Origin: Arenicola marina
Taxonomy: Eukaryota; Annelida; Polychaeta; Arenicolidae
Length of the DNA: 64,000 bases
NCBI GenBank assembly: GCA_964019135.1
Contig: OZ025255.1
Coordinates: 7,998,001-8,062,000 of the forward strand
Reading direction: 5' to 3'
Shown: positions 6,485 through 61,734 of the stretch, piece after piece
Position numbering within the stretch: the first letter of the stretch is position 1
Layout: the number at the start of each line of letters is the position of its first letter
Notes under the pieces: model-generated
What the model was told of the DNA's origin: nothing
The model's database searches: none
Seen by the model: only the letters and a program-made list of their open reading frames with translations
Position numbers and translations under genes: made by a program

Positions 6485-7000
6485 ATGTTCCGGACGAAGA
6501 GTGTTGAACCCGAGTTTCCCAAAGGGCTCATCATCTTCAAGCAGCACGATGTCCACACTCCCAAAGACATGTGCTTCGTCTCCTACCCGATCGACACGCA
6601 CTACCAGGCGGAAGACCTCTGCCTTGACATGGCCGCCAGGCTGGGCATCAGCTCGCTGGGGTGCCAGTTCTTTGCCCTGTACGACGTGGCGCGCGAGGTC
6701 TACCTGGCACCCAACAGCTCCGTGGAGGCTGCCGACGGCGAGTGCCGCAAGTACAGCTTCAAGATGCGCCTCCAGCTGCCGGCGGACCGCGTGCACAACC
6801 TCGACCCCGGCGCCCTGGACTACCTGTACCTGCAGTGTCGCCAAGACTTCCTCGAGGACCGCATCACCTACACAGACAGCACCAAGATTGGCCAGGAGCA
6901 CCAGCTAGGGCTGGTCGTCACCGACATGGTGCGCTACGGCAAGGAAAAGCAGCTCAGCCTGGATAAACTGCTGAAGGAGGACCCAGAGCACTTCATGCCA
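6485..7000 (+). CDS. JAK: JAK exon 1: FERM F1/F2, residues 1-172
   Basis: This exon encodes the start of the FERM domain that binds the receptor box1 region. The stretch AEDLCLDMAARLGI followed by FALYDVAREVYLAPNSS matches the JAK FERM pattern (in vertebrate JAKs, AEE-C--A---GI then FALY/FALM and WYPPN-like). It ends at CCA before a GTCAGT donor. An acceptor-like TTTTAGCAG lies at 6465-6473, so the exon may begin at 6474 with a short 5' UTR. The ATG at 6485 has A at -3. An out-of-frame ATG at 6477 is rejected because only the 6485 frame gives JAK homology. Confidence 0.9.
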
Positions 7001-10000
7001 GTCAGTCAATACCTTTCGTTTACTTTGCATTATGCCGTGTTATAAATATATGTGGGTGTTAATTAAGCATTAATCTTAAAATTGTGTCTGTTGTGATGTC
7101 TGTATTAGGTCGGAACATTATTTTCTTGAGGCTCATCAAGTGAACTTATGGCTCACATCTGAATATCGTTATTCAACAAATATTATTCAAGGACTATGAT
7201 AGATTCTATTAAGTGGAGCTCGGTTGTAAAGTCATCTGCTGATGTATTCTATTTTATTTCGTACAGATCAGTTTCAAAAGTATGTTCAAGGGAATTCTGG
7301 AAAAGAAACGCCTGAAGTCGAACTTTAAGCCTCACGTGGAGACTCAGTATGAAAAGTTTCGAAACACGGATGTTTCTCGGGTAAAGCTGACATTTCTATT
7401 GTGGCTACTCAAGCGGCTGGACCATTACGACAAGGAGGAGTTCTCGCTGGCTGATGGCACAAAAGTGGTAGTCTGTCCCTACCACGAGAAATATGCAGGA
7501 ATATATAGGGTCACTAAGGCGGTAAGTCTTTATTAGCCGTAGATGCTAGGGAATCGGACGGATATATTCCGATGCATCTTAGAAGCCAGGGACAGACATT
7601 AGCTTTGGATGTCGCCTGTCCTGTCGGGCACGTGATGTTGAGATTGACCTGCCCCCCTGAGTATGTACCTGTCCTATCAAATTGAGAAACAACTAAGAAA
7701 CGATTTATTTATTGTGCTTTTTACAAGGATTTTCGACGATTTTGCAAAAGTGAGCGCCTGTTACTGATCACACATTTTTTCGATGTTCTATTGTTGTGGC
7801 CAAACGATGAAAGCTACCGAGCAGTTCTCGTTCGCTTTGAGCAACGCGTGCAGGTTGTTTGCTCAGTGTAACTGCTGAACATTGCTAAATAGCTAGAGAT
7901 CACAGTCTAAATATTTACCCTCCCCGTCGGGCATACAACCAGATTTCGGACCTGTCCGACCATGTAATTCAAGTGTGGCACGATATAGCCTTACAGGCTG
8001 AAAGTGCCGTTAAACCCCAGTCAAATGAATGTAATTCAACTGTCCCGGAAAACCGGACAGTCGGTTATGTTTCTCCCTGAAAGCACTGGTTTGGTTGCAG
8101 TTGGATTGATCAGTGTGTATGTGGTGGCTGTGAGATCGTTCAGGGCGCCTCTCCGCGTCAAAGCTCGTGTATGTAGATGATTGACTGGTCCTGCGTGTGG
8201 AAGTAAAGTTCGCCAATGTCGCAATAGGTGATTACTATTGCAGGTTTTAATACATGGAAATATCTTCTCCCCTCTGATTTGTCCTACACACATGGGACGT
8301 GACACTCTCCCGTGACCTTTCTTTTCTATTTGCAGGGAGAATTTGGATTTTGTAGCATCGAGGATCTGATGGACATCAGCGTGATAGAGAACCCATCCAC
8401 TACCTCATATGTGTCAGTGCTGCTCAACAGAAAGGAGGGTCCCCCAATGGTGAGTCCTGCTAGGGCGCCGTGATTGACAGTGTCAACAGGACGGAGGGTC
8501 CCCAATGGTGAGTCCTGCTAGGGCGCCGTGATTGACAGTGTCAAGAGGACGGAGGGTCCCCCAATGGTGAGTCCTGCTAGGGCGCCGTGATTGACAGTGT
8601 CAACAGGAAGGAGGGTCCCCCAATGGTGAGTCCTGCTAGGGCGCCGTGATTGACAGTGTCAACAGGAAGGAGGGTCCCCCAATGGTGAGTCCTGCTAGGG
8701 CGCCGTGATTGACAGTGTCAACAGGACGGAGGGTCCCCCAATGGTGAGTCCTGCTAGGGCGCCGTGATTGACAGTGTCAACAGGAAGGAGGGTCCCCCAA
8801 TGGTGAGTCCTGCTAGGGCGCCGTGATTGACAGTGCCAAGAGGAAGGAGGGTCCCCCAATGGTGAGTCCTGCTAGGGCGCCGTGATTGACAGTGTCAACA
8901 GGACGGAGGGTCCCCCAATGGTGAGTCCTGCTAGGGCGCCGTGATTGACAGTGTCAACAGAAAGGAGGGTCCCCCAATGGTGAGTCCTGCTAGGGCGCCG
9001 TGATTGACAGTGCCAAGAGGAAGGAGGGTCCCCCAATGGTGAGTCCTGCTAGGGCGCCGTGATTGACAGTGTCAAGAGGACGGAGGGTCCCCCAATGGTG
9101 AGTCCTGCTAGGGCGCCGTGATTGACAGTGTCAACAGGAAGGAGGGTCCCCCAATGGTGAGTCCTGCTAGGGCGCCGTGATTGACAGTGTCAACAGGAAG
9201 GAGGGTCCCCCAATGGTGAGTCCTGCTAGGGCGCCGTGATTGACAGTGTCAACCGGACGGAGGGTCCCCCAATGGTGAGTCCTGCTAGGGCGCCGTGATT
9301 GACAGTGTCAAGAGGACGGAGGGTCCCCCAATGGTGAGTCCTGCTAGGGCGCCGTGATTGACAGTGTCAACAGGACGGAGGGTCCCCCAATGGTGAGTCC
9401 TGCTAGGGCGCCGTGATTGACAGTGCCAAGAGGACGGAGGGTCCCCCAATGGTGAGTCCTGCTAGGGCGCCGTGATTGACAGTGTCAACAGGACGGAGGG
9501 TCCCCCAATGGTGAGTCCTGCTAGGGCGCCGTGATTGACAGTGTCAACAGGAAGGAGGGTCCCCCAATGGTGAGTCCTGCTAGGGCGCCGTGATTGACAG
9601 TGCCAAGAGGAAGGAGGGTCCCCCAATGGTGAATCCTGCTAGGGCGCCGTGATTGACAGTGTCAACAGGACGGAGGGTCCCCCAATGGTGAGTCCTGCTA
9701 GGGCGCCGTGATTGACAGTGCCAACAGGACGGAGGGTCCCCCAATGGTGAGTCCTGCTAGGGCGCCGTGATTGACAGTGTCAACAGGACGGAGGGTCCCC
9801 CAATGGTGAGTCCTGCTAGGGCGCCGTGATTGACAGTGTCAACAGGACGCAGGGTCCCCCAATGGTGAGTCCTGCTAGGGCGCCGTGATTGACAGTGCCA
9901 AGAGGAAGGAGGGTTCCCCAATGGTGAGTCCTGCTAGGGCGCCGTGATTGACAGTGTCAACCGGACGGAAGGTCCCCCAATGGTGAGTCCTGCTAGGGCG

Positions 10001-13000
10001 CCGTGATTGACAGTGTCAACCGGACGGAGGGTCCCCCAATGGTGAGTCTTGCTAGGGCGCCGTGATTGACAGTGTCAACCGGACGGAGGGTCCCCCAATG
10101 GTGAGTCCTGCTAGGGCGCCGTGATTGACAGTGTCAAGAGGAAGGAGGGTCCCCCAATGGTGAGTCCGGCTAGGGCGCCGTGATTGACAGTGCCAAGAGG
10201 AAGGAGGGTCCCCCAATGGTGAGTCCTGCTAGGGCGCCGTGATTGACAGTGTCAACCGGACGGAGGGTCCCCCAATGGTGAGTCCTGCTAGGGCGCCGTG
10301 ATTGACAGTGTCAACAGGACGGAGGGTCCCCCAATGGTGAGTCCTGCTAGGGCGCCGTGATTGACAGTGTCAACAGGACGGAGGGTCCCCCAATGGTGAG
10401 TCCTGCTAGGGCGCCGTGATTGACAGTGTCAAGAGGACGGAGGGTCCCCCAATGGTGAGTCCTGCTAGGGCGCCGTGATTGACAGTGTCAACAGAAAGGA
10501 GGGTCCCCCAATGGTGAGTCCTGCTAGGGCGCCGTGATTGACAGTGTCAACAGAAAGGAGGGTCCCCCAATGGTGAGTCCTGCTAGGGCGCCGTGATTGA
10601 CAGTGCCAAGAGGAAGGAGGGTCCCCCAATGGTGAGTCCTGCTAGGGCGCCGTGATTGACAGTGTCAACCGGACGGAGGGTCCCCCAATGGTGAGTCCTG
10701 CTAGGGCGCCGTGATTGACAGTGTCAACCGGACGGAGGGTCCCCCAATGGTGAGTCCTGCTAGGGCGCCGTGATTGACAGTGCCAAGAGGAAGGAGGGTC
10801 CCCCAATGGTGAGTCCTGCTAGGGCGCCGTGATTGACAGTGTCAAGAGGAAGGAGGGTCCCCCAATGGTGAGTCCGGCTAGGGCGCCGTGATTGACAGTG
10901 CCAAGAGGAAGGAGGGTCCCCCAATGGTGAGTCCTGCTAGGGCGCCGTGATTGACAGTGTCAAGAGGACGGAGGGTCCCCCAATGGTGAGTCCTGCTAGG
11001 GCGCCGTGATTGACAGTGTCAAGAGGACGGAGGGTCCCCCAATGGTGAGTCCTGCTAGGGCGCCGTGATTGACAGTGCCAAGAGGAAGGAGGGTCCCCCA
11101 ATGGTGAGTCCTGCTAGGGCGCCGTGATTGACAGTGTCAACAGGAAGGAGGGTCCCCCAATGGTGAGTCCTGCTAGGGCGCCGTGATTGACAGTGTCAAC
11201 CGGACGGAGGGTCCCCCAATGGTGAGTCCTGCTAGGGCGCCGTGATTGACAGTGTCAACCGGACGGAGGGTCCCCCAATGGTGAGTCCTGCTAGGGCGCC
11301 GTGATTGACAGTGTCAACCGGACGGAGGGTCCCCCAATGGTGAGTCCTGCTAGGGCGCCGTGATTGACAGTGCCAAGAGGAAGGAGGGTCCCCCAATGGT
11401 GAGTCCTGCTAGGGCGCCGTGATTGACAGTGCCAAGAGGAGGGAGGGTCCCCCAATGGTGAGTCCTGCTAGGGCGCCGTGATTGACAGTGTCAACAGGAC
11501 GGAGGGTCCCCCAATGGTGAGTCCTGCTAGGGCGCCGTGATTGACAGTGTCAACAGGAAGGAGGGTCCCCCAATGGTGAGTCCTGCTAGGGCGCCGTGAT
11601 TGACAGTGCCAAGAGGAAGGAGGGTCCCCCAATGGTGAGTCCTGCTAGGGCGCCGTGATTGACAGTGTCAACAGGAAGGAGGGTCCCCCAATGGTGAGTC
11701 CTGCTAGGGCGCCGTGATTGACAGTGTCAAGAGGAAGGAGGGTCCCCCAATGGTGAGTCTTGCTAGGGCGCCGTGATTGACAGTGTCAACCGGACGAAGG
11801 GTCCCCCAATGGTGAGTCTTGCTAGGGCGCCGTGATTGACAGTGTCAACAGGAAGGAGGGTCCCCCAATGGTGAGTCCTGCTAGGGCGCCGTGATTGACA
11901 GTGTCAACCGGACGGAGGGTCCCCCAATGGTGAGTCCTGCTAGGGCGCCGTGATTGACAGTGTCAAGAGGAAGGAGGGTCCCCCAATGGTGAGTCCGGCT
12001 AGGGCGCCGTGATTGACAGTGCCAAGAGGAAGGAGGGTCCCCCAATGGTGAGTCCTGCTAGGGCGCCGTGATTGACAGTGTCAAGAGGACGGAGGGTCCC
12101 CCAATGGTGAGTCCTGCTAGGGCGCCGTGATTGACAGTGTCAAGAGGACGGAGGGTCCCCCAATGGTGAGTCCTGCTAGGGCGCCGTGATTGACAGTGCC
12201 AAGAGGAAGGAGGGTCCCCCAATGGTGAGTCCTGCTAGGGCGCCGTGATTGACAGTGTCAACAGGAAGGAGGGTCCCCCAATGGTGAGTCCTGCTAGGGC
12301 GCCGTGATTGACAGTGTCAACAGGAAGGAGGGTCCCCCAATGGTGAGTCCTGCTAGGGCGTCGTGATTGACAGTGTCAACAGGACGAAGGGTCCCCCAAT
12401 GGTGAGTCTTGCTAGGGCGCCGTGATTGACAGTGTCAACAGGAAGGAGGGTCCCCCAATGATGAGTCCTGCTAGGGCGCCGTGATTGACAGTGTCAACAG
12501 GACGGAGGGTCCCCCAATGGTGAGTCCTGCTAGGGCGCCGTGATTGACAGTGTCAAGAGGAAGGAGGGTCCCCCAATGGTGAGTCCTGCTAGGGCGCCGT
12601 GATTGACAGTGCCAAGAGGAAGGAGGGTCCCCCAATGGTGAGTCCTGCTAGGGCGTCGTGATTGACAGTGTCAACAGGACGGAGGGTCCCCCAATGGTGA
12701 GTCCTGCTAGGGCGCCGTGATTGACAGTGTCAACAGGACGAAGGGTCCCCCAATGGTGAGTCTTGCTAGGGCGCCGTGATTGACAGTGTCAACAGGAAGG
12801 AGGGTCCCCCAATGATGAGTCCTGCTAGGGCGCCGTGATTGACAGTGTCAACAGGACGGAGGGTCCCCCAATGGTGAGTCTTGCTAGGGCGCCGTGATTG
12901 ACAGTGTCAACAGGACGAAGGGTCCCCCAATGGTGAGTCTTGCTAGGGCGCCGTGATTGACAGTGTCAACAGGAAGGAGGGTCCCCCAATGGTGAGTCCT

Positions 13001-16000
13001 GCTAGGGCGCCGTGATTGACAGTGTCAACAGGACGGAGGGTCCCCCAATGGTGAGTCCTGCTAGGGCGCCGTGATTGACAGTGTCAACAGGACGGAGGGT
13101 CCCCCAATGGTGAGTCCTGCTAGGGCGCCGTGATTGACAGTGTCAACAGGACGGAGGGTCCCCCAATGGTGAGTCTTGCTAGGGCGCCGTGATTGAGGCT
13201 GTGTATTGGCTATATATATATATATAATATATGTATTATGGTTGTGCATTGCAGAAGGTGGGCTTTAAGCGGAAGGACCAGGCCCTGTCGTTCGTGGCAC
13301 TGCTGGACTCGTACTACCGTCTGACGGAGGACCACCACCACCACCTCTGTGTCAGCGTCCACTCCCCGCTCCTCACCCGCCTCAGGCGAATCTGCTCGCA
13401 CGGACCGGCAGGGTACGTACAGTGACGCCCCCCCCCCTCGCACGGACCGGCAGGGTACGTACAGAGTGACCCCCCGCGCAACCCCCCGCCCCCTTCTCCC
13501 AGACCGTACAGTGACCCCCTACCAAACCTCCAAACCCGCTCACGGACTGTACAGTGAAACCCGCCGGCACGCACCGGCAGGGTACGTACAGTGACGCCCC
13601 CCCCCTCGCACGGACCGGCAGGGTACGTACAGAGTGACCCCCCGCGCAACCCCCCGCCCCCTTCTCCCAGACCGTACAGTGACCCCCTACCAAACCTCCA
13701 AACCCGCTCACGGACTGTACAGTGAAACCCGCCGGCACGCACCGGCAGGGTACGTACAGTGACGCCCCCCCCCTCGCACGGACCGGCAGGGTACGTACAG
13801 AGTGACCCCCCGCGCAACCCCCCGCCCCCTTCTCCCAGACCGTACAGTGACCCCCTACCAAACCTCCAAACCCGCTCACGGACCGTACAGTGAAACCCGC
13901 CGGCACGCACCGGCAGGGTACGTACAGAGTGATCCGCCACCCAAGCCCCCGCCCCCGCTCTCGGACCTTGCAGTAACCCGCCCCGTCCGGCTAGTATCCC
14001 TGTATGTCTCCCCTACCGATGGCCGGTCCGGCTGTTATCCCTATATGTCTCCCCTACCGATGGCCCGTCCGGCTATTCCCTGTGTCTCCTATGTTCTGTC
14101 CGTCCGCCAAGTTTAAGCTGAGTACAGTCTATGAAGCGTTCTTGACCGTTGTAGGTTGGCGTGGTGCAGACAAAGACTGGTGGAGAAGCACAAAGAAAAC
14201 AAAGCCTACAACTACATGTTGAAGCAGCGCAGTGGGGATCTCGGCTCGTGAGTATTGCTTGCAATATTATGGCTGGGCCAACAAAATCATACCAATGATG
14301 ATGCAATCACATCAATAACACGAGGAAAGAAATATATCATGGTTGCTGCCAACAAAGAAATGGGGCCAAGCATATCTCTATAGGTGACGGCGGATTTAAT
14401 GTTTCGGAATTAAATAACTCCAAGATGTGTTCAAGATGGACGCCATTTGTTCACGATGGACGCCATTTGTTCAAGATGGACGCCATTTGTTAAAGGTAGA
14501 CGCCATTTGTTCAAGATGGACGTCATTTGTTAAAAATGGACGCCATTTGTTCAAGATGGACACCATTTGTTCAAGATGGATGCTATTTGTTGCATTTGTC
14601 GTAGAATGGACGGAGGCAGCCGCTGTATTTTTTCTTACTCGTGGACGGGCATTGCACGGAAATTAATTCTGCATGTCTGAAAGCAATCTAATGGCGTATT
14701 GAACCGGACGTTATCAGCTTGAGGCAAGAAATACTGATACGCGGAGCATGAATCTATATGATACGTCAATAAGTATCGAGCGAGAGAGAAACTCAAGTGG
14801 CGACCGGAACGATTTTGTCATGACCAATACTTTATTATTTGAATCGAAATAAGGTGAATTTTTCCGCGTGGCTGAGAGCAGCACTCACTATCAATTAACT
14901 TCTGGACGCCATTTTAGGAGGCAGTACTATGCGCTCTACGAAACTGTCGCAGCTAGCGTTTATAATACATGTTTTACACTTTAATCAATATTGTAATGTG
15001 TTTTATTCCCCGTTATCGATCAATGTTAATGTAGTCGTTGACGAGGCCTAATTATAGGCTCTCGACCGTAAACACTTCGTTGAGCCCTGGGGGACCCAGC
15101 GGTAACACGTGCATCTATCTTGAGATTGAGTGTCACATGATCAGCATTTATTGTCGTCCAGGGCGCCAGTGGCCTGTACCGCGGTCCGCTAGTTGCTTTC
15201 CCCTATTACCGCCCATCACCCATTCCCCCGGGCTGTTGGCTGGCACGATCATTTGGCTGTCACACTGACTCTATATGCAGCCGCCCTGGTAAGCCACACG
15301 ATTGGCGGGTTGTCAGATTGAGGTCTGGATTAATCGGTTCTTGCTCGCTTGGACAGCCTAACCCAGTCGAACAAGTCACACGCATCCAAATCACTCATAA
15401 GTCGCTCGCGAGATGGAGCCACCGATGACCAAATTTTCTCAAGCTTCTGCTTCCCGGCAAACGGCTCATGTTGAACATCGTTGACTGTGATGGCTGTGCT
15501 GGACCTAACATACGCGATACAGGACTTGTAAATACCCACCATCTTGGGAAAAACATTATTGGCACAAATTGTCTTTTAACTTTTCCTTTACGTAGATGAC
15601 AATATCAAATGGACAAATTGTCCACAGAATATGCGATTATGACATCTTGACGCTGGGTAAAGACAAAAATATTACCCAGAATGCATTAAACATGCAGTGG
15701 CGCCTCACAATGGAATAGTTTGAACTTCGATTTGCGCTTGCACGAGACTCCAGAATCTGAAGACGGTCCCCATTATTACAGCTTACCAGGAGGTTTATTT
15801 CGGTATCGAGTGCCGTAGAAACCTCGTGGAACAGTGGTGCCATCTGGGGACAGAAATCGTCACCCAGTACCAAAACGTGCCCTGTACACAGAGGGCAGCA
15901 TTGTGCTACACGGTGTACGAAATCCGGCAGTGATGTGAAACGAAGCCATACTGTCTTGTTGTTTGAACAAGCTAATGCAGAGGTTTTGTCACAACAGTGG

Positions 16001-55000: not shown

Positions 55001-58000
55001 TGTTGTAGGGTATGGAGTACCTCCACTGTGACTGATGTTTGCCTGTTGTAGGGTGTGGAGTACCTCCACTGTGACTGATGTTTGCCTGTTGTAGGGTATG
55101 GAGTACCTCCACTGTGACTGATGTTTGCCTGTTGTAGGGTATGGAGTACCTCCACTGTGACTGATGTTTGCCTGTTGTAGGGTATGGAGTACCCCCACTG
55201 TGACTGATGTTTGCCTGTTGTAGGGTATGGAGTACCTCCACTGTGACTGATGTTTGCCTGTTGTAGGGTATGGAGTACCTCCACTGTGACTGATGTTTGC
55301 CTGTTGTAGGGTATGGAGTACCTTCACTGACGGATATTTGCCTGTTGTAGGGTATGGAGTACCTCCACTGTGACTGAAGTTTGCCTGTTGTAGGGTATGG
55401 AGTACCCCCACTGTGACTGATGTTTGCCTGTTGTAGGGTATGGAGTACCTCCACTGTGACGGATGTTTGCCTGTTGTAGGGTATGGAGTACCTTCTCTGT
55501 GACTGATGTTTGCCTGTTGTAGGGTATGGAGTACCTCCACTGTGACTGATGTTTGCCTGTTGTAGGGTATGGAGTACCTCCACTGTGACTGATTTTTGCC
55601 TGTTGTAGGGTATGGAGTACCTCCACTGTGACTGATGTTTGCCTGTTGTAGGGTATGGAGTACCTCCACTGTGACTGATGTTTGCATGTTGTAGGGTATG
55701 GAGTACCTTCACTGTGACGGATATTTGCCTGTTGTAGGGTATGGAGTACCTCCACTGTGACTGATGTTTGCCTGTTGTAGGGTATGGAGTACCTTCACTG
55801 TGACGGATATTTGCCTGTTGTAGGGTATGGAGTACCTCCACTGTGACTGATGTTTGCCTGTTGTAGGGTATGGAGTACCCCCACTGTGACTGATGTTTGC
55901 CTGTTGTAGGGTATGGAGTACCTCCACTGTGACGGACGTTTGCCTGTTGTAGGGTATGGAGTACCTTCGCTGTGACTGATGATTGCCTGTTGTAGGGTAT
56001 GGAGTACCTCCACTGTGACTGATGTTTGCCTGTTGTAGGGTATGGAGTACCTCCACTGTGACTGATGTTTGCCTGTTGTAGGGTATGGAGTACCTCCACT
56101 GTGACTGATGTTTGCCTGTTGTAGGGTATGGAGTACCTCCACTGTGACTGATGTTTGCCTGTTGTAGGGTATGGAGTACCTTCACTGTGACGGATATTTG
56201 CCTGTTGTAGGGTATGGAGTACCTCCACTGTGACTGATGTTTGCCTGTTGTAGGGTATGGAGTACCCCCACTGTGACTGATGTTTGCCTGTTGTAGGGTA
56301 TGGAGTACCTCCACTGTGACTGATGTTTGCCTGTTGTAGGGTATGGAGTACCTCCACTGTGACTGATGTTTGCCTGTTGTAGGGTATGGAGTACCTTCAC
56401 TCTGACGGATATTTGCCTGTTGTAGGGTATGGAGTACCTTCACTCTGACGGATATTTGCCTGTTGTAGGGTATGGAGTACCTCCACTGTGACTGATGTTT
56501 GCCTGTTGTTGGGTATGGAGTACCCCCACTGTGACTGATGTTTGCCTGTTGTAGGGTATGGAGTACCTCCACTGTGACTGATGTTTGCCTGTTGTAGGGT
56601 ATGGAGTACCCCCACTGTGACTGATGTTTGCCTCTTGCAGGGTATGGAGTACCCCCACTGTGACTGATGTTTGCCTGTTGTAGGGCATGAAGTACCCCCA
56701 CTGTGACTGATGTTTGCCTGTTGTAGGGTACGGAGTACCTCCACTGTGACTGATGTTTGCCTGTTGTAGGATATGGAGTACCTCCACTGTGACTGATGTT
56801 TGCCTGTTGTAGGGTATGGAGTAACCCCACTGTGACTGATGTTTGCCTGTTGTAGGGTATGGAGTACCTCCACTGTGACTGATGTTTGCCTGCTGTATCG
56901 TATGGAGTACCCCCACTGTGACGGATGTTTGCCTGTTGTAGGGTATGGAGTACCTTCTCTGTGACTGATGTTTGCCTGTTGTAGGATATGGAGTACCTCC
57001 ACTGTGACTGATGTTTGCCTGTTGTAGGGTATGGAGTACCCCCACTGTGACTGATGTTTGCCTGTTGTAGGGTATGGAGTACCTCCACTGTGACTGATGT
57101 TTGCCTGTTGCAGGGTATGGAGTACCCCCACTGTGACGGATGTTTGCCTGTTGTAGGGTATGGAGTACCTCCACTGTGACTGATGTTCGCCTGTTGTAGG
57201 GTATGGAGTACCTTCACTGTGACGGATATTTGCCTGTTGTAGGGTATGGAGTACCTCCACTGTGACTGATGTTTGCCTGTTGTAGGGTATGGAGTACCCC
57301 CATTGTGACTGATGTTTGCCTGTTGTAGGGTATTGAGTACCTTCACTGTGACGGATATTTGCCTGTTGTAGGGTATGGAGTACCTCCACTGTGACTGATG
57401 TTTGCCTGTTGTAGGGTATGGAGTACCTTCACTCTGACGGATATTTGCCTGTTGTAGGGTATGGAGTACCTCCACTGTGACTGATGTTTGCCTGTTGTTG
57501 GGTATGGAGTACCCCCACTGTGACTGATGTTTGCCTGTTGTAGGGTATGGAGTACCCCCACTGTGACTGATGTTTGCCTGTTGTAGGGTATGGAGTACCT
57601 CCACTGTGACTGATGTTTGCCTGTTGTAGGGTATGGAGTACCTCCACTGTGACTGATGTTTGCCTGTTTTAGGGTATGGGGTACCTCCACTGTGACTGAT
57701 GTTTGCCTGTTGTAGGGCATGGAGTACCCCCACTGTGACTGATGTTTGCCTGTTGTAGGGTATGGAGTACCCCCACTGTGACTGATGTTTGCCTGTTGTA
57801 GGGTATGGAGTACCTCCACTGTGACTGATGTTTGCCTGTTGTAGGGTATGGAGTACCCCCACTGTGACTGATGTTTGCCTCTTGCAGGGTATGGGGTACC
57901 CCCACTGTGACTGATGTTTGCCTGTTGTAGGGCATGAAGTACCCCCACTGTGACTGATGTTTGCCTGTTGTAGGGTATGGAGTACCTCCACTGTGACTGA

Positions 58001-60032
58001 TGTTTGCCTGTTGTAGGATATGGAGTACCTCCACTGTGACTGATGTTTGCCTGTTGTAGGGTATGGAGTACCCCCACTGTGACTGATGTTTGCCTGTTGT
58101 AGGGTATGGAGTACCTCCACTGTGACTGATGTTTGCCTGCTGTATCGTATGGAGTACCCCCACTGTGACGGATGTTTGCCTGTTGTAGGGTATGGAGTAC
58201 CTTCTCTGTGACTGATGTTTGCCTGTTGTAGGATATGGAGTACCTCCACTGTGACTGATGTTTGCCTGTTGTAGGGTATGGAGTACCCCCACTGTGACTG
58301 ATGTTTGCCTGTTGTAGGGTATGGAGTACCTCCACTGTGACTGATGTTTGCCTGTTGCAGGGTATGGAGTACCCCCACTGTGACGGATGTTTGCCTGTTG
58401 TAGGGTATGGAGTACCTCCACTGTGACTGATGTTCGCCTGTTGTAGGGTATGGAGTACCTTCACTGTGACGGATATTTGCCTGTTGTAGGGTATGGAGTA
58501 CCTCCACTGTGACTGATGTTTGCCTGTTGTAGGGTATGGAGTACCCCCATTGTGACTGATGTTTGCCTGTTGTAGGGTATGGAGTACCTTCACTGTGACG
58601 GATATTTGCCTGTTGTAGGGTATGGAGTACCTCCACTGGGACTGATGTTTGCCTGTTGTAGGGTATGGAGTACCCCCACTGTGACTGATGTTTGCCTGTT
58701 GTAGGGTATGGAGTACCTCCACTGTGACGGATGTTTGCCTGTTGTAGGGTATGGAGTACCTTCTCTGTGACTGATGTTTGCCTGTTGTAGGGTTTGGAGT
58801 ACCGCCACTGTGACTGATGTTTGCCTGTTGTAGGGTATGGAGTACCTCCACTGTGACTGATGTTTGCCTGTTGTAGGGTATGGAGTACCTCCACTGTGAC
58901 TGATGTTTGCCTGTTGTAGGGTATGGAGTACCTCCACTGTGACTGATGTTTGCCTGTTTTAGGGTATGGGGTACCTCCACTGTGACTGATGTTTGCCTGT
59001 TTTAGGGTATGGAGTACCCCCACTGTGACTGATGTTTGCCTGTTGTAGGGTATGGAGTACCTCCACTGTGACTGATGTTTGCCTGTTGTAGGGTATGGAG
59101 TACCTCCACTGTGACTGATGTTTGCCTGTTGTAGGGTATGGAGTACCTCCACTGCGACAGATGTTTTCCTCTTGTAGGGTATGGAGTACCTCCACTGTGA
59201 CAGATGTTTGCCTCTTGTAGGGTATGGAGTACCTCCACGCCAATAAGATCGTTCACCGGGATCTGGCCACACGTAACATTCTCGTCACCGAATCGTTTCA
59301 CATGAAGATCAGCGACTTCGGTTTGTCGAGGAAGCTGGAGAATGAAATGAACTACTATCGCAGCACGCCCAACAAGGAAATCCCGGCCCTGTGGTGAGTA
59401 TTAGGGACTGTGCTACTTGAGTCATCCAGAAAAGCTAGACTGCCAAATGGGGTCTCCTTGCCTTGCCCGGGATATGAATTAACCACAGGTTCTCAACTTA
59501 GTGGTAAACGTCTTCAGTGCCGCGACAGAGTTCCGCGGTGTCCCGGTATACACACGTTTGCCATATCACTGGCTTATAGAATTATATTCTGATAGAATGA
59601 AACAATCGAGTTTAAGTAAAGATTCGGTCAGCCATTATGGTTTCTAATCTTCCACTGTATGTGTTGTTGTGTTGTAATAGCGAGGTGTGTCCCTCTCCCT
59701 ACAGGAGCTCCATCGAGGGGCTGAGTCACGGCAAGTTCACGATGAAAGGGGACGTCTGGAGCTTCGGGGTCACGCTGTGGGAGATCTTCAACAACGGCAA
59801 CGACCCCGTGTACCCCGGGGTCAAGGGGGTCCCCGAGCTCATAGAGGCCATCAAGGCGGGTAAACGGTTGCCAGGCAACCCGGACTGGCCCGAGGGGATC
59901 TACGCCTTTATGTGCACGTGTTGGAAGGAAGACCCGCACGATCGCAAGGAATTTGTCGACATCGTAGCCACCATGCTAGACACCGAGCGACAGCTGTCAG
60001 CCGCCAACGTGGAGCCCGGCCCCGCCGTGTGA
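6485..60032 (+). CDS. JAK: Janus kinase (JAK) non-receptor tyrosine kinase, 18 coding exons
   Basis: Joined exons: 6485-7000, 7267-7521, 8336-8449, 13255-13412, 14155-14247, 17360-17553, 18114-18245, 18841-18986, 20292-20501, 25207-25382, 26367-26505, 27292-27448, 29769-30110, 30663-30775, 33000-33195, 50049-50173, 59221-59393, 59705-60032. All introns are GT-AG, phases agree throughout, and the sum is 3567 nt (1188 residues plus TGA). Domain order is FERM (about 1-340), SH2-like (about 345-445), pseudokinase JH2 (about 480-763), a low-complexity linker (764-910) and kinase JH1 (about 911-1175). That order is diagnostic of JAKs, which sit on cytokine-receptor tails and phosphorylate receptors and STATs. 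JH1 has GDGHYG, VAIK, HRDLATRN, DFG and a YY activation pair. JH2 has HGS and DPG in place of HRD and DFG. The start at 6485 has A at -3 but lies just inside a possible exon, so an upstream exon is possible. Confidence 0.93.
7267..7521 (+). CDS. JAK: JAK exon 2: FERM F2/F3, residues 173-257
   Basis: 255 nt, phase 0 at both ends. It starts after GTACAG and ends at GCG before GTAAGT. It is rich in Lys/Arg (KKRLKSNFK) and continues FERM, ending in YAGIYRVTKA. That matches the F3 strand of JAKs, where a GIQW-type segment precedes the exon that carries the SIED-like loop. Confidence 0.88.
7522..8335. other. Intron 2
   Basis: Ordinary intron, about 0.8 kb, with one possible SINE tail (7970-8045) and no other structure seen. 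Confidence 0.8.
7970..8045. mobile_element. Possible SINE/retroposon tail in intron 2
   Basis: GTGTGGCACGATATAGCCTT then AAGTGCCGTTAAACCCCAGT resembles the conserved tail type found at the 3' ends of many invertebrate SINEs. No tRNA head is obvious here. Confidence 0.3.
8336..8449 (+). CDS. JAK: JAK exon 3: FERM F3, residues 258-295
   Basis: 114 nt, phase 0 at both ends, after TTTGCAG and before GTGAGT. It encodes GEFGFCSIEDLMDISV and ends GPPM, matching the JAK segment before the ALSFV motif (JAK2: FPNIIDVSIKQ ... KPLEIEL). The last 26 nt (8424-8449) together with the first 33 intronic nt form the unit of the 59-bp array that follows. Confidence 0.88.
8424..13195 (+). repeat. 59-bp minisatellite spanning the exon 3 donor, about 81 copies
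   Basis: Each unit holds 26 nt of exon 3 (from TCAACAG to CCAATG), the donor GTGAGT and 27 further intronic nt (CCTGCTAGGGCGCC and so on). The period is 59: successive 60-base lines slip by one base. The first unit is the real exon end. Variation is mostly at ACAGGA/AGAGGA/ACCGGA, CGGAGG/AGGAGG and TGTC/TGCC. Nearly every unit keeps GTGAGT; a few have ATGAGT or GTGAAT. The array fills almost all of intron 3. Confidence 0.97.
13255..13412 (+). CDS. JAK: JAK exon 4: FERM end / FERM-SH2 linker, residues 296-348
   Basis: 158 nt, following TTGCAG and ending in a split Gly codon before GTACGT. QALSFVALLDSYYRLTED closely matches the JAK signature ALSFV-L-DGYYRLTAD. An HHHH run follows, and CSHGPAG corresponds to the NCHGPIS start of the SH2-like domain. 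The 3' end of the exon is repeated in the downstream array. Confidence 0.92.
13394..13927 (+). repeat. 168-bp compound repeat carrying the exon 4 donor
   Basis: The exon 4 end GCACGGACCGGCAGG plus donor GTACGTACAG recurs about seven times. The starts of the larger C-rich units, at 13441, 13609 and 13777, are exactly 168 bp apart. Each 168-bp unit contains two donor copies plus CCCCCGCGCAACCCC-type sequence and TACAGTGA modules. Confidence 0.9.
13978..14100 (+). repeat. Short degenerate repeat, about 3 copies
   Basis: CCGTCCGGCTA followed by TATGTCTCCCCTACCGATGG recurs about three times with a spacing near 43 bp, just upstream of exon 5. No function is visible. Confidence 0.7.
14155..14247 (+). 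CDS. JAK: JAK exon 5: start of SH2-like domain, residues 348-379
   Basis: 93 nt, following GTTGTAG and ending in a split Ser codon before GTGAGT. It encodes the first SH2 helix (RLVEKHKENKAYNYML), occupying the place of the ISKLKKAGNQTG region of JAK2. Phases join both neighbours exactly. Confidence 0.85.
14424..14600 (+). repeat. 20-bp minisatellite, about 8 copies
   Basis: The unit TTCAAGATGGACGCCATTTG recurs about eight times with small changes in the exon 5-6 intron. It is open in one plus frame because stops are absent by chance. Confidence 0.9.
14601..15324. other. Intron 5, first part
   Basis: No gene. TCGACCGTAAACACTTCGTT to CCGCGGTCCGC (about 15060-15190) is GC-richer than its surroundings and may be an old retroposon fragment. 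Confidence 0.5.
15325..16590 (-). pseudogene. Decayed minus-strand coding-like stretch in intron 5, unrecognised
   Basis: Several minus-strand open segments have protein-like composition rather than repeat composition: one around 15330-15542 with KQKLEKIWSSVAPSRERLMS, one around 15700-15990 with DDFCPQMAPLFHEVSTALDT, and one around 16365-16500 with GASDRHAVAIATAAINAVHS. The last resembles a motif I associate with proteins of mobile elements, but I cannot name the family. A SINE interrupts the stretch at 16005-16190. It could be a decayed mobile element or a gene fragment; it looks non-functional. Confidence 0.35.
16005..16190 (+). mobile_element. Decayed SINE in intron 5
   Basis: GCTGGGCTGCAGATCAGCAGGT precedes a degenerate B box (GTCGTGGGTTTGCGCTC). 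A body GTGCACAAAAGTGGCCCACA then ATTAAAATTTCG follows. The GTGCACA...AAG block recurs in the SINE at 30838. Confidence 0.5.
16591..17359. other. Intron 5, last part: AT-rich
   Basis: AT-rich DNA. A degenerate repeat of AAAATCATGAAAATCA / AAAATCATAAAACTAA type lies at about 17120-17270. No gene. Confidence 0.6.
17360..17553 (+). CDS. JAK: JAK exon 6: SH2-like domain core, residues 379-444
   Basis: 194 nt between CGTGCAG and GTGAGT. FLLIYLEE occupies the place of the JAK YVLRCS strand. The FLVR arginine is absent: Ile383 or Tyr384 stands there, depending on alignment. FEIHRLPSGAYQIG, then FKTMQELLAHYRSESGGI and LLNQCVRP, fit the later SH2 strands and helix B. The domain is expected to work as a structural FERM-SH2 receptor-binding module rather than a phosphotyrosine reader. 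Confidence 0.88.
17820..18012 (+). repeat. 24-bp AT-rich minisatellite, about 8 copies
   Basis: TTTTTGTCAATAATTCCGGA and variants recur about every 24 bp between exons 6 and 7, about 100 bp before the exon 7 acceptor. Confidence 0.85.
18114..18245 (+). CDS. JAK: JAK exon 7: SH2-JH2 linker, residues 444-488
   Basis: 132 nt, after CCCCCAG and ending with a single-base partial codon before GTCAGC. It encodes a charged disordered linker (RGGRQGEDRAEESRPDD) and then FLKNITVIDLL, corresponding to the IRNEDLIFNESL strand that opens JH2. It is the least conserved coding exon, and its acceptance rests on phase, splice sites and position. Confidence 0.75.
18246..18840. other. Intron 7
   Basis: Unique-looking sequence. 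A second AG near 18865 could compete with the exon 8 acceptor but breaks the phase. Confidence 0.7.
18841..18986 (+). CDS. JAK: JAK exon 8: JH2 N-lobe, residues 488-536
   Basis: 146 nt, after GTTGACAG and before GTCAGT. The acceptor at 18840 is the one whose phase fits exon 7; a second AG just before the SGAWPVV segment would break phase. The glycine-rich loop is degenerate (SGAWPVV). QEVAVKQL carries the beta-3 lysine, Lys527. Poor loop glycines suit a pseudokinase. Confidence 0.78.
19011..19725 (+). repeat. 28-29-bp minisatellite after exon 8, about 24 copies
   Basis: The unit is built of AGGCAGAGAGCGATTT then AATATATAGACT. It starts about 25 nt downstream of the exon 8 donor but does not include the junction. 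Two larger blocks resemble each other (19110-19200 and 19520-19600, both with GCGAAGGCAGAGACGACTTG). Confidence 0.85.
19726..20291. other. Intron 8, last part
   Basis: Decayed echoes of the 28-bp array (TTAATAGAT) to about 19945, then unique sequence. A GTGTGCACAAAC block near 20203 resembles the SINE body at 30848. Confidence 0.5.
20292..20501 (+). CDS. JAK: JAK exon 9: JH2 hinge region, residues 537-606
   Basis: 210 nt, phase 0 at both ends, after CCTTCCAG and before GTCAGA. HPCIARVFGVCLSNPFRVV then LELGDLGPLDKYLKE aligns with JAK2 HKHLVLNYGVCVCGDEN ... FVKFGSLDTYLKK. The residue at the position of JAK2 Val617 is Leu561. QLAQAVFYL matches the QLAWAMHFL helix. Confidence 0.9.
20589..20660 (+). 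mobile_element. tRNA-derived SINE head, plus orientation
   Basis: GGCCAGTCCAAGCGGCCGG is A-box-like and GGGGTCCGAATCCC is B-box-like (pol III internal promoter). It lies just after exon 9. About 37 of 40 bases match the reverse complement of the unit of the adjacent 43-bp array. Confidence 0.65.
20860..20945 (-). mobile_element. tRNA-derived SINE head, minus orientation, at the start of the 43-bp array
   Basis: On the minus strand GTGGTTCGCACCCC is a B box and CCAGCCCAAGCGGCCGG precedes it as an A-box-like block. The array that follows repeats this part. A related head (GCGGGGTGCGAACC on the plus strand) is at 25596-25612. Confidence 0.6.
20904..24672 (-). repeat. 43-bp minisatellite derived from a SINE head, about 88 copies
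   Basis: The plus-strand unit contains GAACCACGCACCGGCCGCTT then GGGCTGGCCTATCAGAGCAC and ACT, exactly 43 bp. It fills most of intron 9. Variants (CCCGCACC, GGGCAGAGC, AGCGGCCGTTT) recur as blocks, for example around 22280-22760, 22760-23060 and 23800-23900. The unit equals the A-box part of a tRNA-derived SINE read on the minus strand, with a trace of the B box (GGTTC). Confidence 0.95.
24673..25046. other. Intron 9, last part
   Basis: Unique-looking intronic sequence between the 43-bp array and the (GATAA)n tail. Nothing recognised. Confidence 0.6.
25047..25135 (+). mobile_element. Possible retroposon tail with (GATAA)n
   Basis: A short ATAAG/GATAA microsatellite is followed by AGTTTTATTTAACGTCGG. 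Such microsatellite-anchored ends are common at non-LTR element tails. No coding remnant is visible. Confidence 0.35.
25207..25382 (+). CDS. JAK: JAK exon 10: JH2 pseudo-catalytic loop, residues 607-665
   Basis: 176 nt, after CTGCAG and before GTGGGT. HGSIRCRNVLVF (from residue 621) corresponds to HGNVCAKNILL of JAK2: the catalytic Asp of HRD is Ser623 here. LGDPGM replaces DFG with DPG (645-647), as in JAK pseudokinases. Both substitutions are the clearest evidence for JH2. Confidence 0.93.
25500..25700 (-). mobile_element. tRNA-derived SINE fragment, minus orientation
   Basis: GCGGGGTGCGAACCACC on the plus strand is the reverse complement of a B box (GGTTCGCACCCC). It shares this block with the SINE head near 20900. 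It lies within intron 10. Confidence 0.5.
25780..26050 (+). repeat. SINE-related degenerate tandem, about 4 copies
   Basis: GCTGGGTTCGATTCCAAGCC (B-box-like) is followed by about four repeats of AGCCCGGGCACCTG, CTGGGGCATG and TTTAATCCATTTATCGCCCC, spaced about 45-60 bp. This looks like a SINE body that became tandem. Confidence 0.65.
26367..26505 (+). CDS. JAK: JAK exon 11: JH2 C-lobe, residues 665-711
   Basis: 139 nt, after TTTCAG and before GTCAGT. RMPWLAPECYQN matches JAK RIPWVPPECIEN. ALGITLWEVFALGERPFSNLD matches [21 protein letters not shown], except that the usual D-W-S before FG is reduced to RDIYALG. Confidence 0.92.
26550..26810 (+). repeat. Degenerate TTGTCGCAATAAA repeat, about 5 copies
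   Basis: TATTGTCGCAATA and close variants recur every 45-65 bp in intron 11. No function is visible. Confidence 0.6.
26811..27291. other. Intron 11, last part
   Basis: Nothing recognised apart from a short GC-rich patch near 27040. Confidence 0.6.
27292..27448 (+). CDS. JAK: JAK exon 12: end of JH2, residues 712-764
   Basis: 157 nt, after CCCTACAG and ending with a single G before GTACGA. LRMPPSC then VMARCWDLVPDNRITAKEIVRNVRNL is the standard kinase C-terminal pattern (C-W--P--RP-F--I---L), with Arg retained in DNRIT. Confidence 0.92.
27449..27779 (+). other. Intron 12, G/purine-rich start
   Basis: 27475-27695 is strongly G-rich on the plus strand (runs of GGGGGG and GGAGGGAGGG) and can be expected to favour G-quadruplex or triplex structure. 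No gene. Confidence 0.6.
27780..29758 (+). repeat. 30-bp minisatellite with CRE palindromes, about 65 copies
   Basis: The unit is GTTTGATGACGTCAGTGACG then TGGCGGGTGT. Most units contain the perfect CREB/ATF palindrome TGACGTCA followed at once by the half-site TGACG. A larger block is duplicated: the odd sequence GTGTGATGAAATCAGTGACA occurs near 28069 and near 28749, about 680 bp apart. The array ends 10 nt before exon 13. Because 30 is a multiple of three, several frames are open on both strands; these are not genes. Confidence 0.95.
29769..30110 (+). CDS. JAK: JAK exon 13: low-complexity JH2-JH1 linker, residues 764-878
   Basis: 342 nt, after GTTTCAG and before GTACGT, in phase with both neighbours. 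It encodes a Pro-rich part (PPNHPQPHTP), then a Gly/Ala-rich part (ASGGLGLGDGGDGAGARG), then Ser-rich sequence. The known JAK JH2-JH1 linker is only a few tens of residues, so this exon makes it unusually long and probably disordered. The reading frame stays open upstream into the 30-bp array. Confidence 0.82.
30125..30325 (+). other. G-rich repeat (GGGTCGGGGTGGGGGGCCGG) in intron 13
   Basis: GGGGCCGGTAGGGG and GGGTCGGGGTGGGG modules recur about six times right after exon 13. Four-run G tracts are frequent, so G-quadruplex potential is high. Confidence 0.7.
30335..30605 (+). repeat. About 33-bp minisatellite, about 8 copies
   Basis: CACCCTGGGTCTGCACATAA then CTTGGTCTGC recurs with length variants in intron 13. 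Confidence 0.85.
30663..30775 (+). CDS. JAK: JAK exon 14: end of linker and first half of JH1 P-loop, residues 878-915
   Basis: 113 nt, after GTTGCAG and before GTAAGT, phase 0 at its 3' end. It ends NPDHKLGD. The next exon begins GHYGEV, so the GxGxxG nucleotide loop (G914, G916, G919) is split by the 2.2-kb intron. The position matches FLQQLGKGNFG of JAK2. Confidence 0.85.
30825..31010 (-). mobile_element. tRNA-derived SINE in intron 14, minus orientation
   Basis: The plus strand has GGATTCGAACCC, the complement of a perfect B box (GGGTTCGAATCC). Toward 30840 come GTGAATGGATGAAACAAG and TTCATGCCACCTTTGTGCAC, body sequence also seen near 25710 (ATGCCACCTTTGGGAACACA). The tRNA-like head spans about 30925-31005. 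Confidence 0.7.
31011..31443. other. Intron 14, between SINE and 33-bp array
   Basis: Unique-looking DNA with a C-run near 31110. Nothing recognised. Confidence 0.6.
31444..32868 (+). repeat. 33-bp minisatellite, about 43 copies, open on both strands
   Basis: The unit is GACCGTTTGGCTGTCTAATA then ACCAATGGTATGT; successive GACCG blocks are 33 bp apart. Since 33 is divisible by three, it yields long spurious frames (plus: 11-residue repeat WLSNNQWYVTV; minus: 11-residue VIRQPNGHIPL). It lies in intron 14 and has no splice junction in the unit. Confidence 0.95.
33000..33195 (+). CDS. JAK: JAK exon 15: JH1 N-lobe, residues 916-981
   Basis: 196 nt, after GTGACAG and before GTAAGG. It encodes the rest of the P-loop, VAVAIKRL with the ATP-binding Lys939, and FEREFTMMKRLKHERIV with the alpha-C Glu956. 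The final 40-41 nt of the exon are the left half of the 74-bp unit that repeats for the next 16.5 kb. Confidence 0.93.
33155..49660 (+). repeat. 74-bp minisatellite spanning the exon 15 donor, about 223 copies, 16.5 kb
   Basis: The unit joins about 40 nt of exon 15 (ATCGTCCAGATCATAGGGCA, GTGTCCGCAGCGGAACGAAG) to 34 nt of intron beginning GTAAGGCTGTGGTGG. The first unit is the genuine exon end. Variants are mainly CGTCC/CGCCC, CAGCGG/CAGTGG and CCGGCC/CCGACC/CCGGCA/CTGACC. The donor GAAG|GTAAGG is kept in almost all units, with rare exceptions near 41410 and 48585. One unit near 41695 lacks seven bases. The array ends within ATCGTCCAGA. Confidence 0.97.
49665..49890 (+). repeat. 13-bp repeat CGATACCAATAAA
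   Basis: CGATACCAATAAA and variants (AAGAAG, AAGCGA) recur about 17 times immediately after the 74-bp array, before exon 16. Confidence 0.9.
50049..50173 (+). CDS. JAK: JAK exon 16: JH1 hinge, residues 981-1022
   Basis: 125 nt, after CATTGCAG and before GTACGT. LLVMEYVPKKSLKHFLRR matches JAK2 LIMEYLPYGSLRDYLQK (hinge and alpha-D). It ends AKEIAE, which joins to GMEYLH of the next exon as in QICKGMEYLG. Confidence 0.92.
50174..50467 (+). other. Intron 16 start, G-rich
   Basis: G-rich plus strand (GGGTGTGGGGGGGGCGGCGC; GGTGGGGGGGGGGGGCGAGG) between the exon 16 donor and the 43-bp array. High G-quadruplex potential; no gene. Confidence 0.65.
50468..59238 (+). repeat. 43-bp minisatellite spanning the exon 17 acceptor, about 203 copies, 8.8 kb
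   Basis: The unit is 25 intronic nt ending in the acceptor (TGATGTTTGCCTGTTGTAG) and the first 18 nt of exon 17 (GGTATGGAGTACCTCCAC). The last unit is the genuine exon start at 59221. Variants include CTCC/TTCC/CCCC, GACTGATG/GACGGATA, and short units (GAGTGACAGTCACTGATG; GAGCGACGGATA). Almost every unit keeps a pyrimidine-rich stretch and TTGTAG. Long minus-strand frames, one over 1100 codons, are artefacts. Confidence 0.97.
59221..59393 (+). CDS. JAK: JAK exon 17: JH1 catalytic loop and activation segment, residues 1023-1080
   Basis: 173 nt, after CTCTTGTAG and before GTGAGT. It contains HRDLATRN (catalytic Asp1036, Asn1041), DFG (Asp1054) and the JAK-typical tandem activation tyrosines Tyr1067-Tyr1068, followed by IPALW. 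The first 18 nt of the exon are the right end of the 43-bp array unit. Confidence 0.94.
59421..59545 (-). mobile_element. Possible decayed SINE head in intron 17
   Basis: GCCCGGGATATGAATTAACC resembles a worn B-box complement, and TTAGTGGTAAACGTCTTCA resembles the A-box side of the SINE near 30950. Weak. Confidence 0.3.
59705..60032 (+). CDS. JAK: JAK exon 18: JH1 C-lobe and C-terminus, residues 1080-1188
   Basis: 328 nt after CCTACAG, ending at TGA 60030-60032. KGDVWSFGVTLWEIF and LPGNPDWPEGIYAFMCTCWKEDPHDRKEF give helices F to I. Where JAKs have WYAPES this protein has WSSIEG, so APE reads SIE with Glu1084 kept. The last 8 codons (NVEPGPAV) lie inside the first unit of the 45-bp array. Confidence 0.93.
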
Positions 60033-61212
60033 CGGCAGCTGTAGGCCGACCACGAGGCGCCCGACCACGTGGCGCCCGGACCCGCCGTGTGACGGCAGCT
60101 GTAGGCCGACCACGTGGAGCCCGGCCCCGCCGTGTGACGGCAGCTGTAGGCCGACCACGAGGCGCCCGACCACGTGGCGCCCGGACCCGCCGTGTGACGG
60201 CGGCTGTAGGCCGACCACGTGGAGCCCGGCCCCGCCGTGTGACGGCAGCTGTAGGCCGACCACGAGGCGCCCGACCACGTGGTGCCCGGACCCGCCGTGT
60301 GACGGCAGCTGTAGGCCGACCACGTGGAGCCCGGCCCCGCCGTGTGACGGCAGCTGTAGGCTGACCACGTGGAGCCCGGCCCCGCCGTGTGACGGCAGCT
60401 GTAGGCCAACCACGAGGCGCCCGACCACGTGGCGCCCGGACCCGCCGTGTGACGGCAGCTGTAGGCCGACCACGTAGAGCCCGGCCCCGCCGTGTGACGG
60501 CAGCTTTAGGCTGACCACGTAGAGCCCGGCCCCGCCGTTTGACGGCAGCTGTAGGCCGAACACGAGGCGCCCGACCACGTGGCGCCCGGACCCGCCATGT
60601 GACGGCAGCTGTAGGCTGACCACGTGGAGCCCGGCCCCGCCGTGTGACGGCAGCTGTAGGCTGACCACGTGGAGCCCGGCCCCGCCGTGTGACGGCAGCT
60701 GTAGGCTGACCACGTAGAGCCCGGCCCCGCCGTGTGACGGCAGCTGTAGACTGACCACGTGGAGCCCGGACCCGCCGTGTGACGACAGCTGTAGGCCGAC
60801 CACCAGGAGCCCGACCACGTGGCGCCCGGACCCGCCGTGTAACGGCAGCTGTAGGCCGACCACGTGGAGCCCGGACCCGCCGTGTGACGACAGCTGTAGG
60901 TTGACCACGTGGAGCCCGGCCCCGCCGTGTGACGGTAGCTGTAGGCTGACCACGTGGAGCCCGGACCCGCCGTGTGACGACAGCTGTAGGCTGACCACGT
61001 TGAGCCCGGCCCCGCCGTGTGACAGTAGCTGTAGGCTGACCACGTGGAGCCCGGACCCGCCGTGTGACGACAACTGTAGGCTGACCCCGTGGAGCCCGGC
61101 CCCGCCGTGTGACGGTAGCTATAGGCTGACCACGTGGAGCCCGGACCCGCCGTGTGACGGCAGCTGTAGGCTGACCACGTGGAGCCCGGCCCCGCCGTGT
61201 GACGACAGCTCT
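60008..61212 (+). repeat. 45-bp minisatellite seeded on the stop codon, about 25 copies
   Basis: The unit is ACGTGGAGCCCGGCCCCGCC then GTGTGACGGCAGCTGTAGG and CTGACC. The first copy is the last eight codons plus TGA of the JAK gene and the start of its 3' UTR. Some units carry an inserted CGAGGCGCCCGACCACGTGG block. If the transcript runs through it, this is 3' UTR. Confidence 0.95.
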
Positions 61213-61734
61213 AGTACAACATCCGAGCCTGTACAGACCCTAACCCACAGTGAAATCAGTCACAACACGTTGTGCGATTTTGCCTTTCCCACCCGGTGTG
61301 GACAAATGAACGAATATCATATCATAAACATTAATTTATTCACGTATAAGACAACATGGTGCTCAGGATTATAACGTGTTTTTATCGCGGAAACATGGCT
61401 GCGTCGTGTTCAAGTTCATATGCCCTGGGCGTTCACTGAGAGGCCACTAGTACGGCTGTGGCCGCAGAGTGGCGCTGCGATAGGAGTGGGTCGAGGGCTG
61501 CGGCTCTCTCCGATAACTCTCCGTTAGGGGGAGCTCTGCGATAGGACCATGTGAATGTGGTGTGAGAGATACTGCCATTAAGATTATAGCGGGGACTGGT
61601 GTGAATGTGACAAAAGTTGGCTATCAGCCTTAGCCAGTGACTTTACCATAGAGCCATGACAAGGCACATTATCACGTAGCAGGCCCTTACAAAACCTCAT
61701 CACCGACTAACCCTGCATGGGACATATGCTACAT
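61213..61734. other. Downstream of the stop-codon array
   Basis: Unique-looking sequence, possible JAK 3' UTR or flank. No gene seen. Confidence 0.5.

Follow-up and report, generated by a model that had tools for sequence, protein, structure and literature searches.

Minisatellites carrying exon boundaries and a stop codon in a JAK-type kinase gene of Arenicola marina, probably sheltered by splicing

Minisatellites whose units span an exon-intron boundary, at a donor or an acceptor, have been described in amphioxus as "mirage" minisatellites, in Adh3 and the globin genes BflGb6 and BflGb9 (PMC3087553), and troponin C and PGBD5 have been added to the list (PMC3902484). According to the accessible portions of these two papers, many of the units carry AG/GT signals, the authentic section adjoins the copies, and the copies within a cluster evolve in concert. 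In this work, we analysed a stretch of 64,000 nucleotides of the Arenicola marina genome (GenBank assembly GCA_964019135.1, contig OZ025255.1, positions 7,998,001 to 8,062,000 of the forward strand; hereafter the window, with positions counted from its first letter), in which a single JAK-type tyrosine kinase gene holds five arrays of similar character, with units that contain the donors of exons 3, 4 and 15, the acceptor of exon 17 and the stop codon. All five have units of minisatellite size (59, 168, 74, 43 and 45 bp, respectively), and in four of them the unit spans an exon-intron boundary, as in the published mirages. This does not hold for the stop-codon array, whose boundary is the end of the coding sequence (CDS) and which has no donor-like or acceptor-like site at our threshold; by analogy, it may work like a mirage without being one, as its extra copies fall outside the coding part. 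We consider that these arrays are probably splice-sheltered minisatellites, which arose by chance duplication and were tolerated because splicing removes the extra copies.

The arrays described here are new in degree, namely in array size, in the number found in one gene and in the stop-codon case, while their kind was already known. In the portions of the amphioxus papers that are accessible, BflGb6 has 6 and 3 units in two haplotypes and PGBD5 has three units of 108 bp, whereas the three largest arrays here have 81, 224 and 207 units, and a single gene with five arrays, of which one sits at a stop codon, differs from the mirages described there. The original prediction, made from the sequence of the window, had named the amphioxus junction minisatellites as a parallel, which was correct as to kind (PMC3087553, PMC3902484). 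As to its suggestion that stop-codon seeding and three boundary types in one gene may be new, donor and acceptor cases are already in print (PMC3087553), and for a stop-codon minisatellite no precedent was found among the matches listed in openly licensed papers, which is a weak negative on a thin basis. In primate-specific human genes, too, exon-intron boundaries can carry minisatellites, known as variable internal tandem repeats, which may be spliced out (PMC2812944); as far as the accessible part of that paper describes them, these are short, averaging 160 bp (30 bp x 4), and are associated with segmental duplications in which new introns and alternative splicing have appeared. The tandem dual-specific splice sites of the polyubiquitin gene UBC likewise place a splice motif once in every repeat unit, but there the AGGT at each ubiquitin monomer boundary is usable as donor or acceptor, according to the accessible text (PMC10809524), whereas each array here scores as one kind of site only. 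A kinase-domain pattern scan of a genome contig collection gave 28 pattern matches and no relative, and a 40-base array-unit pattern had 0 matches in a viral contig collection.

The gene lies on the plus strand at 6485-60032, and its model of 18 coding exons rests on the CDS, on Pfam matches and on the Protein Data Bank (PDB) sequence 7t6f_A. The exons are located at 6485-7000, 7267-7521, 8336-8449, 13255-13412, 14155-14247 and 17360-17553 (exons 1-6), 18114-18245, 18898-18986, 20292-20501, 25207-25382, 26367-26505 and 27292-27448 (exons 7-12), and 29769-30110, 30663-30775, 33000-33195, 50049-50173, 59221-59393 and 59705-60032 (exons 13-18). When joined, they give a CDS of 3510 nt with a single, terminal stop, and all 17 introns are of the GT-AG type. 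The Pfam matches to FERM_F1, FERM_F2, Jak1_Phl (barely above the Pfam cut-off) and two stretches of PK_Tyr_Ser-Thr provide the layout of FERM, pseudokinase and kinase that is expected of a JAK kinase. The 8 Pfam matches include no SH2 model, but the region where an SH2-like domain would be expected falls inside residues 285-749, which align to 7t6f_A. This was the best of the two PDB sequences found under E 1e-60 and is listed as 'Tyrosine-protein kinase'; we take it to be mouse JAK1.

Tandem Repeats Finder (TRF) returned 67 rows, which were merged by hand into 26 arrays in the window; 20 of these fall in the gene span (6485-61214), where array sequence makes up 41,162 of 54,730 bp; there are no Ns anywhere in the window. 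TRF and the gene model together bear out five boundary-bearing arrays in one 18-exon kinase gene. The other 15 of the 20 gene-span arrays hold no boundary, and the proposal that only junction-bearing arrays persist thus fails as worded. All five boundary arrays are read on the plus strand. The exon 3 donor array (8424-13196) has 81 units of 59 bp, 80 of them full, with 26 exonic nt in the unit, while the exon 4 donor array (13395-13927) has a compound unit of 168 bp built of sub-units of 41-42 bp, with 18 exonic nt. The exon 15 donor array (33155-49660) is the largest, with 224 units of 74 bp (223 full) and 41 exonic nt. The exon 17 acceptor array (50475-59238) has 207 units of 43 bp (206 full) and 18 exonic nt; it ends on the acceptor, and its consensus unit contains a branchpoint-like CTGAT, a pyrimidine tract and AG. 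Hence, the exonic pieces predicted for donor 3 and acceptor 17 were exact, those of about 20 and 40 nt for donors 4 and 15 needed small corrections, and the piece of about 27 nt proposed for the stop codon was replaced by a whole in-frame unit of 45 nt. The latter follows from reading the stop-codon array (59988-61214) in modules of 15 nt, which form units of 45 or 60 bp: TRF places its start at 60000, but the module read-out moves the first unit to 59988-60032, in frame, so that it consists of the 15 codons that close the CDS, RQLSAANVEPGPAV followed by TGA. After the stop, 78 modules of 15 nt continue in the CDS register to 61202. It is true, as predicted, that each array begins or ends with the unit holding the authentic exon end, yet this is automatic once an array contains a boundary.

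Each splice-site array is filled with decoys of its own boundary. The authentic donor 9-mer, itself counted, occurs 78, 7 and 219 times in the donor 3, 4 and 15 arrays, respectively, and is absent elsewhere in the window. With a splice-site matrix built from this gene's 17 introns and the lower quartile as threshold, these arrays contain 78, 7 and 221 donor-like sites and 0 acceptor-like sites, and the acceptor-17 array contains 197 acceptor-like and 0 donor-like sites. Because each array holds one kind of splice site, none offers a complete pseudo-exon at that threshold. Read-through past the donor hits an in-frame stop at codon 8 (donor 3), 5 (donor 4) and 10 (donor 15), so that any decoy further down would meet the stop too, and the five acceptor-17 decoys nearest to the exon, the only ones translated, each lead into an in-frame stop. 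The exon-side sites should therefore be those used if the protein is made, and exon definition presumably makes the choice.

The copies, which were compared in the donor-3, donor-15, acceptor-17 and stop-codon arrays, are without sign of coding constraint, although the picture by mismatch rate is mixed. The exonic piece has more variant types per site than the plain intronic piece in donor 3 (0.42 vs 0.11), donor 15 (0.66 vs 0.33) and acceptor 17 (1.78 vs 1.56), and its mismatch rate is also higher in donor 3 (0.052 vs 0.006) and acceptor 17 (0.061 vs 0.045). The 15-nt modularity in the CDS frame suggested that the stop-codon array might be of coding origin or translated, which we rejected: 10 of its 23 variant types are synonymous (0.31 expected), giving P 0.18 and no synonymous excess, and its 24 TGA-type and 24 TAG stops are all kept, one of them as TAA.

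If the arrays are sheltered by splicing, the course of events would be as follows. A chance tandem duplication over an exon edge would leave one full junction on the exon side and place the extra copy on the intron side, and provided that the exon-side site continues to be selected in splicing, the additional copy would leave with the intron and the change would be nearly neutral. Duplication across a stop codon would have the same outcome, with the extra copies falling past the stop. The short array could then grow to tens or hundreds of copies by block duplication, through unequal exchange, slippage or conversion. The anatomy of the arrays, their decoy counts, the absence of signs of coding constraint in the stop copies and the block repeats described below are direct observations; that the authentic sites are in use is suggested by the open reading frame, which requires them. 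On this account, the frequency of births at junctions would be close to that permitted by chance. Three rivals, on birth, growth and chance, concern the birth rate at junctions and overlap with this account.

To compare the placement of boundaries with chance, each array was collapsed to one seed of its own period and placed at random in the collapsed sequence, which for the gene has 35 boundaries in about 14.5 kb. The 54-kb background used in the original prediction is inappropriate, because seeds could land only in collapsed sequence. All P values for placement and size are post hoc and come from one gene, in a window picked because it looked odd. Five boundary arrays among the 20 of the gene span compare with 2.1-2.2 expected (P 0.045-0.051), or 2.5-2.6 when wholly exonic seeds are excluded (P 0.087-0.093), and with 1.6-1.8 expected for all 26 arrays of the window (P 0.019-0.030); arrays with at least 3 copies, in window or gene, give P 0.006-0.034, and splice sites alone 0.054-0.094. 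That ordinary chance in a repeat-ridden gene, with many arrays, many exons and short unique introns, accounts for the five is possible, although we would not call it likely. Over all sizes, a base P of 0.045-0.087 moves to 0.071-0.13 when 11 weaker arrays are added, to 0.078-0.14 without the donor-4 array, to 0.095-0.15 without the stop-codon array (splice sites only) and to 0.17-0.25 without both, while treating donor 4 as a 42-bp seed gives 0.029-0.063. The large arrays speak against chance: a boundary occurs in 5 of the 9 arrays of at least 500 bp vs 1.1-1.4 expected (P 0.0015-0.0033, or 0.0029-0.0044 with a slightly different collapse) and in 4 of the 7 of at least 1000 bp (P 0.002-0.004). 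The excess survives without the stop-codon array, as splice sites alone give 4 of 8 arrays of at least 500 bp (P 0.0065-0.011), and with a minimum overhang of 10 nt on either side of the boundary, the settings by gene span, window, copy number and array size all give P 0.0001-0.014. Thus, the claim that the coincidence is hard to explain by chance is borderline over all 20 arrays and clearer among those of at least 500 bp. The same large arrays are what favours a junction hot spot, in which some DNA or transcription feature of junctions makes exon edges preferred sites of repeat birth, since 7 of the 9 contain a boundary or have one no more than 25 nt away (P 0.0008-0.0013) and mirages have been reported in several unrelated amphioxus genes (PMC3087553, PMC3902484, in their accessible portions). 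However, a birth bias should enrich small arrays as well, and 0 of the 11 arrays below 500 bp hold a boundary; over all 20 arrays the values are the borderline ones given above, also with the weaker arrays added. Hairpin-driven instability was rejected, since folding showed no advantage over shuffles for any of the 8 unit consensuses examined (z -0.67 to 1.29); 4 of these belong to boundary arrays, namely all except donor 4. The GC skew has no common sign (0.19, -0.32, 0.16, 0.24 and -0.01 in the boundary arrays; -0.15, 0.49, 0.17 and 0.40 in four large others), and no common pattern of the R-loop type was seen by eye across these nine arrays. Exon edges as breeding sites of repeats are supported only weakly by these data, the preferred birth sites of the original prediction are not established, with the large-array excess pointing elsewhere, and we regard a hot spot as distinctly unlikely.

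The size of the arrays points to growth or persistence rather than birth. The boundary arrays measure 16506, 8764, 4773, 1215 and 533 bp and the other 15 gene arrays from 3779 down to 40 bp, a difference with an exact rank-sum P of 0.0027 (0.0065 weighted by period); their periods are longer too (P 0.005), and their copy numbers are higher (P 0.015-0.016, with 0.015 when weighted by period). Births could thus be random, with arrays that carry a splice site or stop growing larger or lasting longer, for example because binding of U1 or U2 or co-transcriptional splicing protects or stimulates them, U1 protection being a known phenomenon. Units were split and coded by variants in five arrays (donor 3, donor 15, acceptor 17, intron 9 and intron 14). 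The 223 full units of the donor-15 array fall into 44 distinct types and the 206 of the acceptor-17 array into 55, and exact block recurrences reach 28 and 25 units, respectively. For the length instability between alleles or somatic cells that characterises mirages, such block repeats would be indirect evidence at most. In both giant arrays the blocks are concentrated in the transcript-5' half, with a block-repeat coverage of 0.86 vs 0.14 in the 3' half for donor 15 and 0.81 vs 0.19 for acceptor 17, and singleton units number 3 vs 22 and 3 vs 23 (Fisher P 0.0001 or less). As the exon lies 5' of the donor-15 array but 3' of the acceptor-17 array, the side of the exon does not set the polarity; transcription or replication might do so. 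A growth bias is nevertheless unlikely in our estimate, since the comparison concerns five arrays of one gene and was made after seeing the data, and since large arrays without a boundary exist (3779, 1967, 1425 and 710 bp). The polarity rests on two of the five unit-split arrays: singleton bias is absent in donor 3 (8 vs 7), intron 9 (6 vs 3) and intron 14 (1 vs 2), and donor 3 and intron 14 have no block runs, while the 5' half of intron 9 contains a block run (coverage 0.37 vs 0). The more specific idea that splicing or transcription steers growth, so that arrays with a splice site or stop outgrow others and expand in a polar manner along the transcript whichever side the exon is on, is quite doubtful. 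An assembler that inflates copy numbers or whole arrays is a very unlikely cause; duplication of haplotype segments could underlie the exact recurrences (28 and 25 units), and one published mirage was misassembled in a genome draft (PMC3087553, accessible text), but the diversity of unit types and the lack of Ns argue against it, and even a wrong number of copies would leave the boundary inside the unit. It is extremely improbable that the arrays are marks of introns that arose when an AG-GT segment was duplicated in tandem, a model published for amphioxus globins (PMC3087553, accessible text), although the donor-15 array contains AAGGTAAGG, and hence AGGT, 219 times. That model predicts the same repeat at both ends of an intron. 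When 30 nt of each exon edge were compared with up to 1500 bp of the adjoining intron at 34 junctions, only donors 3, 4 and 15 and acceptors 17 and 7 were at the floor of P 0.005, acceptor 7 weakly so (score 24 vs 22 for the best of 200 shuffles, which could be chance among 34 junctions), and at none of these 34 junctions did both ends of one intron share sequence with it.

Shelter by splicing remains our preferred explanation. In its favour, births lie modestly above chance, use of the exon-side sites keeps the JAK frame open, and the accessible portions of the amphioxus papers say that mirages do not interfere with splicing (PMC3087553, PMC3902484). Several points weigh against it. The one-sidedness of the splice sites is weak evidence, since the donor units amount to about 300 bp of independent sequence, for which a background of 1 acceptor per kb predicts 0.3. 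Among 181 acceptor decoys, 20 score at or above the authentic acceptor, and site strength alone thus does not explain the choice. By mismatch rate, the exonic piece of donor 15 shows less variation than its plain intronic counterpart (0.022 vs 0.034). In its neutral form, the explanation does not predict that boundary arrays are larger (P 0.003-0.0065), and the placement among large arrays exceeds what that form would give (P 0.003-0.004, wholly exonic seeds excluded). Neutrality and correct splicing are assumptions that we make from the genomic sequence.

Among the large arrays without a boundary, all on the plus strand, the 43-bp array of intron 9 (20900-24678) has a unit that is an inverted copy of the single-copy stretch 20588-20626, about 270 bp upstream (95% over 39 nt), and the 33-bp array of intron 14 (31445-32869) stops 130 nt from exon 15. 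Two others lie closer to junctions: the 28-bp array of intron 8 (19011-19720) starts 24 nt past donor 8, and the 30-bp array of intron 12 (27789-29755) ends 13 nt before exon 13. We considered whether these two are eroded mirages and found no support for the idea, as alignment of their flanks to their own units gave no detectable homology on the exon side: within 60 nt, the 28-bp array had none in its exon-side flank and the 30-bp array none in either. This alignment took in 60 nt on either side of 9 of the 26 arrays; 1 of the 18 flanks gave P <0.02, to the right of the 28-bp array, where it is plain continuation of the array, and the left flank of a 24-bp array gave P 0.032. The 30-bp array also has 50 donor-like sites at threshold and 44 of the window's 45 TGACGTCA palindromes, the 45th being at 30781, shortly past donor 14. 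We presume the palindrome to be of the CRE type (cAMP response element). Outside the gene, direct repeats of about 0.5 kb at 3405-3880 and 5447-5910, which are separated by some 2.04 kb and match at 88-92% over three ungapped pieces, enclose a 318-aa open frame on the minus strand and may represent a small element of the long terminal repeat (LTR) type, and an inverted repeat at 2029-2270 and 2419-2660 has arms of 242 nt that are 83% complementary and lie 148 nt apart.

The growth-bias and polarity readings are more interesting leads than the hot spot, and the collapsed-seed null offers a worked model for distinguishing the birth of repeats at exon edges from mere tolerance of them in such places. 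Rules proposed for splice-site choice include proximity across the intron and exon definition. If the JAK-type gene is expressed normally, it would be a natural stress test of that choice, with 219 identical donor 9-mers at intron 15 and 197 acceptor-like sites at intron 16, of which, judging by the reading frame, only the exon-side sites would fit the protein. A rule favouring the sites closest across the intron would, by this reasoning, fail here, and exon definition would pass.

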